From positions 1 through 46,516 of the forward strand of contig CACNHI010000002.1 of assembly GCA_902620265.1 (NCBI GenBank): a stretch of DNA of 46,516 bases, in the 5' to 3' direction. Of the stretch, positions 37,612-45,978 are shown one piece after another; the stretch's first letter is position 1, and every line of letters starts with the position of its first letter. Below the pieces are notes generated by a model, which was given only the letters and a program-made list of their open reading frames with translations, did not search any database and was not told where the DNA came from. The position numbers and the translations under genes are program-made. The stretch is from an uncultured Pelagibacteraceae bacterium. GTDB lineage: Bacteria; Pseudomonadota; Alphaproteobacteria; Pelagibacterales; Pelagibacteraceae.

Positions 37612-38382
37612 ATGAAATTTACAATTTTAGGATGTGGAAGTTCAATGGGTGTACCAAGACCTGATGGTAATTTTGGGAATTGCAATCCTAATAATAAAAA
37701 GAATATTAGAACAAGATGTTCTGCAATAATTCAAGGCAAATCTTTAAATATACTTATTGATACCTCTCCAGATATGAGACAACAGTTAATTGACAATAAT
37801 ATAAATAATGTTGATAAAGTTCTTTTTTCACATATGCATGCTGATCAAACACATGGAATAAATGATCTTAGGGTTTTTTATCTAAAAAAAAGAAAGCCCA
37901 TTGATATATATGCAGATTCAGCCACACAAAAATATTTGAAAAAATCATTCTCATACTGTTTCGAAAATAATTCGCCTGAATATCCTGCAACTTTAAAAAT
38001 GAATTCTATTAAAAAAGATTTTTATTTTAATGATGGAAAAAATAAAATTCATATTAAATCTTTAATGGTCAAACATGGAAATGTGGATTGTACTTGTTAT
38101 ATTATAAATAAAAAACTAGCTTACATAAGTGATGTAAGTGATATACATAAAAAAGACTTTAAATTTTTAACAAATTTAAAGTATTTAATCATTGATTGTT
38201 TATGGTATAGAGAACATCCATCACATTTGAATCTAGATAAATCGCTTAGATTGATTAATATTCTTTTACCTAAAAAAGCTATTTTAACTAATCTCCATTC
38301 AGATCTTGATTACAATAAACTTAAAAGTAAGTTAAAAAAAAATATAGTTCCAGCTTATGATGGAATGAGTATTAATTTATAG
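37612..38382 (+). CDS. MBL-fold metallohydrolase (PhnP-like)
   Basis: ILGCGSSMGVPRPDG, LIDTSPDMRQQL, FSHMHADQTHGINDLR. Confidence 0.92.
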   Translation: MKFTILGCGSSMGVPRPDGNFGNCNPNNKKNIRTRCSAIIQGKSLNILIDTSPDMRQQLIDNNINNVDKVLFSHMHADQTHGINDLRVFYLKKRKPIDIYADSATQKYLKKSFSYCFENNSPEYPATLKMNSIKKDFYFNDGKNKIHIKSLMVKHGNVDCTCYIINKKLAYISDVSDIHKKDFKFLTNLKYLIIDCLWYREHPSHLNLDKSLRLINILLPKKAILTNLHSDLDYNKLKSKLKKNIVPAYDGMSINL

Positions 38383-40650: not shown

Positions 40651-40727
<77 letters not shown>

Positions 40728-40732
40728 TTATT

Positions 40733-41014
40733 ATGAAAAAAGCAAAAATATATAAACCTGCTAAAACATCTATGCAATCAGGTAGAGCAAAAACTAAAAA
40801 ATGGCTTTTAAGGTTTGACGATATAAAAAGTGGCATAAATCCTTTAATGGGTTGGGAAAGCTCAACTAATACTATGTCTGAAATAAATCTTGAATTTTCT
40901 TCTCAAGAGGATGCTGTTAAATACGCAAAAAAAAATAATATAAGTTATGAACTAATAGAACCTAAGGAAAGAAAAGTAATTAAAAAATCCTACGCTAATA
41001 ACTTTACTAAATAA
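40733..41014 (+). CDS. ETC complex I subunit conserved region protein (NDUFS4-like)
   Basis: AKIYKPAKTSMQSGRAKTKKWLLRF, PLMGWESSTNTMSEINLEFSSQEDAVKYAKKNNISYEL. Confidence 0.9.
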   Translation: MKKAKIYKPAKTSMQSGRAKTKKWLLRFDDIKSGINPLMGWESSTNTMSEINLEFSSQEDAVKYAKKNNISYELIEPKERKVIKKSYANNFTK

Positions 41015-42012: not shown

Positions 42013-42962
42013 TGCCATTAAATAAAGATTTAACCAAAGAAATAGTTACAGTAACCTCTCGAGCAGCAATAGCTTGCTATAAATTTTTAGGTAAAAATGA
42101 CAAAAAATCAGCTGATAAGGCAGCGACAGATTCAATGAGAAATGAAATTAATAAACTTAGAATTAATGGTGAAGTTGTAATAGGTGAGGGTGAACTAGAT
42201 GAAGCTCCAATGTTGTATATTGGTGAAAAATTAGGTTCAGGAGGAGAACTAAATTTAGATATAGCAGTTGACCCACTTGAGGGAACAAATTTTGTTGCAA
42301 AAAATTTACCTGGAGCTTTATCAGTAATAGCAATAGCTGAAAAAGGTAATTTGTTTAATGCACCAGAGACTTACATGGATAAACTAGCTGTATCAAACAC
42401 TGTTCCAAAAGATGCAACTGATTTAGACTTTTCATTAGAAAAGAACATTAAAAATATTGCCGATTCTTTAAATAAAGATCTAAAAGATATAACTGCTTGT
42501 TTATTAAATAGGCCAAGACATAAAAAAATTATAGATACTCTTGGAGAGATGAAAGTTAAAATGAAACTAATATCCGATGGTGATGTTTCAGGTGCATTGA
42601 TGGTTACTAATAAAAAATTTGATGTTGATATTTTTTTAGGTATAGGTGGAGGCCCTGAAGGTGTTTTGGCTGCATCTGCCATAGATACAATGGGATGCAA
42701 ATTTCAAGGAAGATTCATATTTGAAAATGAAAGAGATAAGGATAGAGCTAAAAGAATGGGTATAAAAGATCTTAATAAGAAATACGAATTAGAGGAAATA
42801 ATTAAAGGTGACTCTATATTTTGTGCGACAGGTATAACAAACGGCGATCTAGTAAGCGGCATTAAAGTTAAAGATAAAAAATATATTACTGAAACTTTGG
42901 TTACACATAAAAGCAGTGATTTAAGTGAAATTGTTGTTCGTGAAGACATTATAAAAACTTGA
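42012..42962 (+). CDS. glpX: Fructose-1,6-bisphosphatase class II
   Basis: VIGEGELDEAPMLYIGE, DIAVDPLEGTNFVAKNLPGALSVIAI, DIFLGIGGGPEGVLAASAIDTMGC; GTG start. Confidence 0.95.
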   Translation: MPLNKDLTKEIVTVTSRAAIACYKFLGKNDKKSADKAATDSMRNEINKLRINGEVVIGEGELDEAPMLYIGEKLGSGGELNLDIAVDPLEGTNFVAKNLPGALSVIAIAEKGNLFNAPETYMDKLAVSNTVPKDATDLDFSLEKNIKNIADSLNKDLKDITACLLNRPRHKKIIDTLGEMKVKMKLISDGDVSGALMVTNKKFDVDIFLGIGGGPEGVLAASAIDTMGCKFQGRFIFENERDKDRAKRMGIKDLNKKYELEEIIKGDSIFCATGITNGDLVSGIKVKDKKYITETLVTHKSSDLSEIVVREDIIKT

Positions 42963-42997
42963 TAAATATTATTTTTTACAATAAAAGATGCAAACTT

Positions 42998-43072
42998 GGT
43001 CCCTTCGTCTATCGGTTAGGACACATGGTTTTCATCCATGAAAGAGGGGTTCGATTCCCCTAGGGACCGCCA
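42998..43072 (+). tRNA. tRNA-Glu (TTC)
   Basis: GGTCCCTTCGTCTATCGGTTAGGAC...ATGGTTTTCATCCAT...GGGGTTCGATTCCCCTAGGGACCGCCA. Confidence 0.97.
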
Positions 43073-43074
43073 TA

Positions 43075-43329
43075 ATGACTTATTATATTTACTTAATTAT
43101 TAGCAAAGTCAAAAATAAGTCAATTTCTTATGTAGGCTATACCAATAATATTAAAAATAGAATCAAATTACACAATGCTGGAAAAGGAGCTAAATTTACT
43201 AAAGGAAGAAAATGGATCTTAGTATATAAAAAAAAGTTTGCCTCAAAAAAAAAAGCAATGAGTGAAGAATACAAATTAAAAAAAAACTATAAATTAAGAA
43301 ATCAAATCAAAATAAATGTTAAAGTTTAA
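43075..43329 (+). CDS. GIY-YIG nuclease family protein (UPF0213/Slx1-like)
   Basis: TYYIYLIISKVKNKSISYVGYTNNIKNRIKLHNAGKGAKFTKGRKWILVY. Confidence 0.92.
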   Translation: MTYYIYLIISKVKNKSISYVGYTNNIKNRIKLHNAGKGAKFTKGRKWILVYKKKFASKKKAMSEEYKLKKNYKLRNQIKINVKV

Positions 43330-43903
43330 AAAAATAAAAGGTAACTTTGTTCACCCAACAGCTGTTATTAATTGGAAATCTTTAATAATTGGAAAGGGAA
43401 ATACTATTGGACCATACGTCGTAATAGGCAATCAAGCCCAATGGAAAAATAAAAAAAATTCAGGTAAAATTATTATTGGAAATCGAAATGTTTTTAATGA
43501 ATATACAAATATACACCTTCCAACAACACTTAAAAAAAAAACCTATATTGGCAATGATAATTATGTGATGAACTCATCAACTATTGATCATGATTGTCAT
43601 ATAGAAGATAATATTATTTTAAGCAGTAATGTTATATTAGGCGGTAATGTTTATGTAATGAAATATGCTAATTTAGGTATAAAATCAATTGTACATCAGA
43701 ATCAAATAATTGGTTCATATAGCATGATAGGAATGGGTTCTATTGTAACTAAAACTAAAAAAATTTTACCTGGCTACATATATTTTGGTAAACCAATTAA
43801 AAAAATAAAAAAAAACACATTGAGTTTAAAAAAAAATAAAATTAATTATAAGAAATTAATGTTAGAAAATAAAAGATTTAAGGAGCTTTTAAAAAAAAAA
43901 TGA
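43316..43903 (+). CDS. LpxA-like left-handed beta-helix acyltransferase (short form)
   Basis: Hexapeptide repeats (VHPTAVIN...IGKGNTIGPYVVIGNQAQWK), IDHDCHIEDNIILSSNVILGGNVYV matching the LpxA catalytic-His region. Confidence 0.88.
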   Translation: MLKFKKIKGNFVHPTAVINWKSLIIGKGNTIGPYVVIGNQAQWKNKKNSGKIIIGNRNVFNEYTNIHLPTTLKKKTYIGNDNYVMNSSTIDHDCHIEDNIILSSNVILGGNVYVMKYANLGIKSIVHQNQIIGSYSMIGMGSIVTKTKKILPGYIYFGKPIKKIKKNTLSLKKNKINYKKLMLENKRFKELLKKK

Positions 43904-45978
43904 GGGAGATCGCAATTTTATTACCATATAAAGAAAACTTTACTGAAAATAGTGCAGGTGCTGCATCTATCTGGGTTAAAGATTATTTAAACAAAAGTAG
44001 TTTAAAAAGTAGGTCTACCGTATATGGCTATCTTAGTAATAAATCCAAACCATTACTTAAAAATTTTAAAAATCTTAAATTGGGTAATTCATTTGTAAAA
44101 AAAAATATTTCCTACACTGACAAGTTATACAAAGAATATCTTAAATATAATTTTAAAATAATTGAAATTCATAACAGACCAGAGTCACTTCTTTATTTAA
44201 TTAAAAAAAAAGTAAAATCAAAACTTATATTTATTTATCATAATAACCCCCAAGATTTAAGATCCTCGTCTTCCATAAATGAAAGAATTTTTATAGCAGA
44301 AAATACAGATCAAATTTATTTTGTTAGTAATTGGGTTAAAAATAAATTTTTTGAAGATTTACCTTATAAACATAGGAATAATTGTGATATTTTATATCCT
44401 GCTATTAGTCCTATTAAAAGATTTCCAAAAAAAGAAAAATTAATTATTTTTACAGGAAAATTGAATTCATCCAAAGGCTTTGACACATATGGTAAATCTA
44501 TAATAAAGATTTTAAATAAATTTACTGATTGGAAAGCATTAGCGATTGGTAATGAACCACGAGAAAAATATAATTTTAAACATAATCGTTTTGAAATTCT
44601 TGATTGGGTAACCCACTCAAAAATATTAGATTATTATAAAAAATCATCAATTTCAGTTGTTCCTTCTCGATGGCAAGAACCATTTGGAAGGACTGCAATG
44701 GAGTCAGCAGCTTTTGGGTGTGCAACTATTACATCCAAAAGAGGTGGTTTACCTGAAACATTCGAAAATAGCTTGTTTATAAAAAAAATTAATCATCACG
44801 AACTTTCAAATATTATTGAAAAATTAATTAAAAATCAGTCATTAAGAGAAAAAATACAAAAAAAAAATTGGAAAAATGTGATTCATAAAATTTCAGATCA
44901 TGTTAAAAAAATTGATAATTTAAAATATTTTTTTTTAAACTCAAAATTTAATTATAATAGAGGAGTTAATTTAAAAGTATTACATATATCCACATTTGAT
45001 GAAAGAAGCGATCATCGTTTATTCAATATTTCTATAGCTAACAAAATTTCTAAGGGACTTATAAGAAATAACCATGATGTGATAAACTTTAGTTACCGTA
45101 ATTATTTATCTAAAAATTTTTTAACAAAAAATAATAAAATAATTAATGATAAAGTCACCAATATTGTAGAAAACTACCGTCCAAATTTAATTGTTCTTGG
45201 GCATAATAATATTTTAGAAAGTAACACTTTATCAAAAATTAAATCAAAATATAATTCTAAAATTATATTATGGTACGAAGATGCTTTAGGATATCGGGGC
45301 GAGGGTCCTAATTGGAGAAAAAACTTAAATTTAATTGAGAAAAACTCTGAATTAATTGATCAATATTATTTAACTACACATCCTGATGAAATAAAAACAA
45401 GTATAGATAAAAAAAAACTAAATTACTTACCAATACCTGTTGATCCTAATATTGAAAATTTAAAAATCTATGATTTTAAAAATAGATTTAAAGACTTATT
45501 TTTTGCTTTAAGTCATGGTGTAAATTTCGGTAAACTAAAAAGAGGAAAGAGTGATGAAAGGGAAGGTTTTATAAATCAATTAATGGGTAAATTTCCTAAT
45601 ATTAAATATAATGTCTTAGGGATATCAAATGAATTACCAAAATGGAATTATAATTTTTATAATGAATTAATTAAATGTAAAATGTCGCTTAACCTAAGCA
45701 GAGGTAAACCATTAAAGTATACATCAAGTAACAGAATAGCAGCTTTGATTGGCAATGGAATATTTACATTTATAGATGATAAAACTAAATTTAGACATTT
45801 TTTTAATGAAGACGAGGTTGGTTTTTATAAAAATATAGATGACCTTGGAAAAAAAATAGAGTATTTACTAAAATATCCTAATAAAATAAATCAATATGCT
45901 AAACAAGGCAAAGCAAAATACTTTAAATTATTTAATAATAAATTAATTACAAAGCAGATTATTCAAAAAACTTTTTAA
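43900..45978 (+). CDS. Two-domain glycosyltransferase: N-terminal GT4-like and C-terminal CgeB/GT-B-like
   Basis: SVVPSRWQEPFGRTAMESAAFGCATITSKRGGLPETF (GT4); second half LKVLHISTFDERSDHRLF... CKMSLNLSRGKPLKYTSSNRIAALIGNGIFTFIDDK resembles Glyco_trans_1_2/CgeB. Confidence 0.85.
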   Translation: MREIAILLPYKENFTENSAGAASIWVKDYLNKSSLKSRSTVYGYLSNKSKPLLKNFKNLKLGNSFVKKNISYTDKLYKEYLKYNFKIIEIHNRPESLLYLIKKKVKSKLIFIYHNNPQDLRSSSSINERIFIAENTDQIYFVSNWVKNKFFEDLPYKHRNNCDILYPAISPIKRFPKKEKLIIFTGKLNSSKGFDTYGKSIIKILNKFTDWKALAIGNEPREKYNFKHNRFEILDWVTHSKILDYYKKSSISVVPSRWQEPFGRTAMESAAFGCATITSKRGGLPETFENSLFIKKINHHELSNIIEKLIKNQSLREKIQKKNWKNVIHKISDHVKKIDNLKYFFLNSKFNYNRGVNLKVLHISTFDERSDHRLFNISIANKISKGLIRNNHDVINFSYRNYLSKNFLTKNNKIINDKVTNIVENYRPNLIVLGHNNILESNTLSKIKSKYNSKIILWYEDALGYRGEGPNWRKNLNLIEKNSELIDQYYLTTHPDEIKTSIDKKKLNYLPIPVDPNIENLKIYDFKNRFKDLFFALSHGVNFGKLKRGKSDEREGFINQLMGKFPNIKYNVLGISNELPKWNYNFYNELIKCKMSLNLSRGKPLKYTSSNRIAALIGNGIFTFIDDKTKFRHFFNEDEVGFYKNIDDLGKKIEYLLKYPNKINQYAKQGKAKYFKLFNNKLITKQIIQKTF

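Follow-up and report, generated by a model that had tools for sequence, protein, structure and literature searches.

Bacterial transcription units that join tRNAs to a protein-coding gene are exemplified by the Escherichia coli operon thrU-tyrU-glyT-thrT-tufB, in which a leader with a ribosome-binding site lies between the tRNA and the coding sequence. In human and animal mitochondrial DNA, mRNAs abut tRNAs and the AUG lies a few nucleotides past the tRNA 3' end, an arrangement termed tRNA punctuation: once the tRNA is excised, the mRNA would begin where the tRNA ended and would be leaderless (Montoya, Ojala and Attardi 1981, as cited in PMC4633059). Leaderless mRNAs, with the AUG at or near the 5' end and no Shine-Dalgarno sequence, also occur in actinobacteria and other bacteria, mostly with transcription starting at the start codon itself (PMC3848588, PMC4681348, PMC4633059), and an AUG close to the 5' end favours leaderless translation (reviewed in PMC9031893). 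Here we describe a locus of the Pelagibacteraceae in which a nuclease gene starts immediately after a tRNA-Glu gene. As in the E. coli operon, a tRNA and a protein gene seem to be transcribed together, the SAR11 gap being 2-5 nt instead; as in the actinobacterial mRNAs, the AUG would lie near the 5' end, except that here the end would come from tRNA processing.

The tRNA-Glu/nuclease junction and its predicted transcription

The window, that is, the whole stretch of 46,516 nt that was analysed, comes from a genome (G000) that is 66% complete. Its features of concern here are the following.

40651..41014, + strand: tRNA-Pro(UGG) (40651-40727) and, after 5 nt, from ATG 40733, the gene for an NDUFS4-like complex I subunit of 93 aa (PF04800, 3e-33)
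42958..42963, + strand: CTTGAT, a conserved -35-like box overlapping the glpX stop codon TGA (42960-42962)
42977..42987, + strand: conserved -10 region TACAATAAAAG, whose hexamer would be TACAAT (12 nt past the -35 hexamer) or TAAAAG (17 nt past it)
42998..43072, + strand: tRNA-Glu(UUC) with encoded CCA (ARAGORN, ending in GCCA; Rfam RF00005, 59 bits)
43073..43074, + strand: 2-nt spacer TA, read from the sequence
43075..43329, + strand: gene for a single-domain GIY-YIG nuclease of 84 aa, UPF0213-like (PF01541, 7e-17)
43316..43903, + strand: LpxA/NeuD-like hexapeptide acyltransferase (PF00132; the NCBIfam LpxA/NeuD-like match is below cut-off)
43900..45978, + strand: two-domain glycosyltransferase (PF00534 and PF13524), overlapping the preceding acyltransferase ORF

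The junction reads GGGACCGCCA, TA and ATGACTTATTAT in succession, and both ARAGORN and the sequence itself confirm the preliminary description in placing the tRNA-Glu CCA end at 43072 and the nuclease ATG at 43075, 2 nt further on. Followed upstream, the nuclease frame runs into a stop codon within tRNA-Glu (TGA, 43039-43041), and no in-frame ATG, GTG or TTG lies between that stop and 43075. Upstream alternatives were therefore rejected and 43075 is the sole bacterial start of the nuclease, so that the earlier argument for this start site was right. The spacer, said earlier to leave no room for a promoter or Shine-Dalgarno sequence, is too short to hold any other signal. A perfect 9-bp inverted repeat (TGACTTATT / AATAAGTCA, window 43076-43122) could fold over the start codon; it was set aside because the letters pairing around the start codon change among relatives (ATGAAATATTTT and others), and the repeat was not seen to be conserved.

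The protein belongs with the single-domain GIY-YIG proteins of the UPF0213 type. Its domain covers residues 3-74 and scores 61.9 bits against a curated cut-off of 22.6 (PF01541), the catalytic Tyr, Arg and Glu are kept, and it resembles the solved relatives 1zg2 (1.1e-10) and 1ywl (5.4e-06) in domain, length and sequence, with no difference of kind. The nuclease family is encoded in 302 of 397 genomes of the Pelagibacteraceae. All 117 sequences compared share Y6, Y19, G21, R29, H33, N34 and E65, and dN/dS between pairs of relatives is about 0.05-0.24; these invariant catalytic positions and low ratios show a real, translated and functional gene under purifying selection. The acyltransferase ORF begins before the nuclease gene has ended, which puts it in the same transcription unit. 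A MKISILLPYKENF-type glycosyltransferase relative lies directly 3' of the nuclease gene in other genera too; in most of these the nuclease does not adjoin a tRNA, yet the same kind of glycosyltransferase comes next in most loci inspected.

Upstream of tRNA-Glu, an ungapped alignment of 75 nt from 67 sequences contains a promoter-like block 11-40 nt before the tRNA, with CTTGAT and TRCAATARAA (about -21 to -12), which is the most conserved part of the region. CTTGAT occupies positions -40 to -35 from the tRNA 5' end (C 87%, T 90%, T 91%, G 84%, A 84%, T 88%), and in the -10 region T-22, T-21, C-19, A-18, A-17, T-16, A-15, A-13 and A-12 are each about 80-96% conserved. The block persists with different upstream genes and where the upstream ORF ends 35, 45, 50, 94 or 115 nt from tRNA-Glu, so neither a stop codon nor any one neighbour explains it. 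The best conserved hexamer, TRCAAT, stands 12 nt from the -35-like box, too short for the usual sigma-70 spacing, whereas TAAAAG fits a 17-nt spacer; with either, a start site is predicted a few nucleotides before tRNA-Glu. A simple scan for a canonical sigma-70 promoter returned a single weak site, no more than shuffles give, and the cross-genome comparison was the more informative of the two approaches. The site scan found no promoter-like site on the + strand within tRNA-Glu, and no terminator-like site between the tRNA and the nuclease coding sequence; nothing resembling the upstream block stands between the tRNA and the ATG. The locus thus has the make-up of a tRNA-mRNA dicistron: a protein gene directly downstream on the same strand, no terminator between, and a promoter-like block upstream of the tRNA with none between tRNA and coding sequence. 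That tRNA and nuclease are co-transcribed, as proposed earlier, is strongly supported at the level of sequence by this block lying upstream of the tRNA alone, by a spacer too short for a promoter, and by a layout that is both conserved and recurrent.

Tight tRNA-to-gene junctions in relatives

The nuclease start region was read in 117 loci, 67 of them from the window's genus. An intact tRNA-Glu lies directly 5' of the nuclease in 59 of these 67, at exactly 2 nt in 37 and at 7 nt or less in 57, counts that represent non-independent events, the sampled genomes being related. The 2-nt spacing pointed out in the preliminary description is therefore conserved in relatives, and it is more than chance. 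The gap ranges from -1 to 7 nt, rarely 35, and the letters of the 2-nt spacers vary (TA, CA, AA, TT, AT). At two loci (L124 and L150) the junction reads GCCATG, the last A of the tRNA-Glu CCA serving as the A of the nuclease ATG. Apparent gaps of 0 (L131) and 2 (L178) were traced to mis-set starts, the true values being 3 and 5. In another genus (L173, L175, L178) the nuclease starts 5 nt after tRNA-Arg(UCU). Some genomes of the window's genus carry the nuclease away from a tRNA (L009, L010, L026, L116, L125, L130; in L125 with a reversed gene inserted), so the linkage is dispensable. The start codon is ATG in 66 of 67 tRNA-adjacent nuclease genes versus 30 of 47 non-adjacent ones, an excess that leaderless initiation would favour and in which genus and adjacency are confounded.

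The nuclease is one case among many. We surveyed co-directional tRNA-to-CDS neighbours in five genomes: the window's own, a complete one of the same genus (G003), a complete one of another genus (G005), one of the sister family (G397) and a 3.4-Mb alphaproteobacterium (G418). ORFs were called mechanically, and a start may be misplaced by a few codons. Gaps of at most 12 nt made up 7/10, 7/15, 8/16, 3/14 and 1/15 of the pairs, respectively, or 22/41 in the three Pelagibacteraceae against 4/29 in the two other alphaproteobacteria (pooled Fisher p = 0.0009). The layout occurs at about seven tRNAs per Pelagibacteraceae genome. Genes that abut a tRNA include those for the CCA-adding enzyme (tRNA-Gln), HisRS (tRNA-His), trigger factor (tRNA-Leu) and the NDUFS4-like subunit (tRNA-Pro), as well as an NAD-kinase-like protein and an AMP-binding enzyme. 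The tRNA-Pro gap, 5 nt in the window, is 6 nt in the complete genome of the same genus. HisRS starts 4 nt after tRNA-His in the window's own genome (L240, contig C13), and in the other genus (G005, L304) an ORF whose N-terminus is similar to HisRS starts 5 nt after it. A gap of -1 before trigger factor in the latter genome was an artefact of the called start: the sequence MKVTV begins 9 nt past that ATG and 8 nt past the CCA.

Most telling is the pair of tRNA-Gln(UUG) and the CCA-adding enzyme, read in 18 genomes of the genus (L337-L354, and L232). The gap is 3 nt in 17 of them and 5 nt in one, and at least seven spacer sequences occur (AAT, ATT, GAT, TTT, CAT, TAT, CTT); the length of the spacer is held while its letters change. 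No tRNA stands upstream of the CCA-adding enzyme in two sister-family genomes. This pair, with its fixed 3-nt gap, offers the cleanest place for testing whether mRNA 5' ends are made by a cut at a tRNA. In Ca. P. ubique the median intergenic length is 3 nt (PMC2704228), and a small gap can thus be explained without any special mechanism. The unusual feature is the kind of neighbour upstream, a tRNA that has to be excised. The recurrence of tRNA-abutting start codons in the Pelagibacteraceae, above all at tRNA-Gln and the CCA-adding enzyme, is the larger finding of this study.

Proposed release of the mRNA and the enzymes of tRNA maturation

We consider it fairly probable that these junctions are tRNA-mRNA units in which a cut near the CCA yields a near-leaderless mRNA, the layout being a streamlined, genome-wide means of supplying mRNA 5' ends, akin to mitochondrial punctuation, and not a device specific to the nuclease. 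A promoter just upstream of tRNA-Glu would give one RNA in which tRNA-Glu is followed by the nuclease ORF and then by the overlapping genes for polysaccharide; the tRNA 5' end would be trimmed by RNase P, and RNase E or another endonuclease would free the tRNA by cutting at the CCA or a few bases from it, the CCA-adding enzyme rebuilding the CCA where the cut removes part of it. The remaining mRNA, its AUG 0-5 nt from the 5' end, would be translated by leaderless-type initiation. We infer co-transcription, the cut and the leaderless mRNA alike from the anatomy of the junction, its conservation and recurrence, the promoter-like block and the enzyme inventory. When the junction is folded with the start of the coding sequence, the tRNA keeps its cloverleaf up to the CCA, so the uncut RNA would offer the 30S subunit no leader. 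Against release by a cut, it could be that the uncut tRNA-mRNA is itself translated, and exonucleolytic trimming of the tRNA 3' end would destroy the mRNA.

The preliminary description had 3' processing release an mRNA beginning TA-AUG, thereby coupling nuclease expression to tRNA maturation. The release is plausible and the best reading, with two points on the other side. It would require an endonucleolytic cut at the CCA, for which the usual enzyme, RNase Z, is not recognisable in these genomes, so that RNase E or another nuclease is left. And with the A shared by CCA and ATG in L124 and L150, a molecule cut after the CCA could not supply a complete AUG as well as a templated CCA end. A dedicated coupling is unsupported, because the nuclease is sometimes found away from a tRNA and many unrelated genes sit equally close to one.

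The enzyme inventory was taken at the level of family models, at which a divergent enzyme could be missed. CCA is encoded in every tRNA read in the two complete Pelagibacteraceae genomes. All 31 genomes searched have RNase E, which passes its cut-off in 30 of them; the CCA-adding enzyme is present in 30/31. For RNase PH, 11 of 12 genomes of the sister family exceed the family cut-off, against 0 of 19 of the window's genus, where weak matches in proteins of about 700 aa are probably PNPase. For RNase Z (ELAC-type), which makes the 3' cut in mitochondrial-type processing, no match to TIGR02651 passed the cut-off in 60 genomes. Across the genus a single weak match recurs, to an MBL protein resembling PhnP/GPMC; the window's own weak match, the MBL protein at 37612-38382, was dismissed as a candidate, since it fits PhnP/GPMC-type MBL models far better. 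The other alphaproteobacteria searched also fall below the RNase Z cut-off, so a divergent RNase Z is possible. No RNase D passed its cut-off in the genomes searched; most of them encode a short relative, some 200-235 aa long. In P. acnes, which is without an obvious tRNase Z, cuts fall a few nucleotides after the CCA or between its Cs (PMC3848588). By analogy, a cut of this type, followed by rebuilding by the CCA-adding enzyme, would reconcile the GCCATG cases with release of the mRNA.

The SAR11 gene layout, with 22/41 co-directional gaps of 12 nt or less, fits mitochondrial punctuation at the level of gene order. It differs from the mitochondrial system in its encoded CCA, in that about half of the co-directional pairs are tight, and in that no RNase Z was recognised. 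More tentatively, and with some doubt, we suggest that in the Pelagibacteraceae tRNA 3' processing might serve quite generally to make mRNA 5' ends; this bacterial counterpart of mitochondrial punctuation would have arisen as RNase PH and canonical RNase Z were lost. SAR11 bacteria rank among the ocean's most abundant cells. Should many of their mRNA 5' ends indeed come from a tRNA cut, tRNA maturation would be tied to gene expression in a free-living bacterium, and a mitochondrial-style mode of expression would become testable in a bacterium. Among the linked genes are some whose products work on tRNA (CCA-adding enzyme with tRNA-Gln, HisRS with tRNA-His), and these could come under feedback from the rate of tRNA maturation. 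Such an origin of mRNA 5' ends would also raise the question by which nuclease tRNA 3' ends are made when neither RNase PH nor RNase Z is recognisable in the lineage. In the literature searched, largely that open without subscription, we found no description of tRNA-derived mRNA 5' ends in SAR11.

Alternative readings of the junction

Could the small gaps result from plain streamlining, spacers having been deleted everywhere with no expression that depends on processing? The nuclease would then be expressed weakly by read-through from the tRNA, the unprocessed tRNA acting as a 5' untranslated region in competition with tRNA maturation. The 3-nt median intergenic region of Ca. P. ubique (PMC2704228) suits such an account, as does the unfixed spacing at the nuclease (-1 to 7, rarely 35), and junctions with a gap of -1 require either uncut RNA or a cut within the CCA. 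Even so, we regard it as unlikely: a cloverleaf reaching up to the start codon would probably block the 30S subunit, the tRNA-Gln/CCA-adding enzyme spacer keeps its 3 nt despite its changing letters, and trigger factor, HisRS, the NDUFS4-like subunit and the CCA-adding enzyme, which share the position, fit weak and accidental read-through poorly. Very unlikely is a promoter of the nuclease's own, from which transcription would begin within the tRNA gene and give an ordinary short leader. Start sites internal to stable RNA genes are possible as far as sequence can tell; against this, the scan found no + strand promoter-like site within the tRNA, whose sequence is in any case dictated by its function as a tRNA, and the tRNA before the nuclease is tRNA-Arg in another genus.

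The least probable explanation, already mostly refuted, is that the junction marks the edge of an integrated element which brought in the nuclease gene and had the tRNA-Glu 3' end for its attachment site, the spacing being a remnant of site-specific integration. Pelagiphages do integrate into tRNA genes (PMC3861242). Duplication or fragmentation of the tRNA-Glu 3' end is confined to two loci: L140, with a complete tRNA-Glu about 1.5 kb upstream, a second copy of its 3' end (at least 27 nt) standing 2 nt before the ATG and small ORFs between the copies, and L004, with a 3' tRNA-Glu fragment only. At both loci, though, the insert lies between tRNA and nuclease, which leaves the nuclease on the host side; the nuclease-glycosyltransferase pair occurs in other genera with no tRNA nearby, and the other dicistrons hold housekeeping genes. 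No integrase was seen among the window neighbours examined, and the window has a single complete tRNA-Glu. The junction is nonetheless a landing site for inserted DNA, which accounts for part of the exceptions to the layout (L140 and L004).
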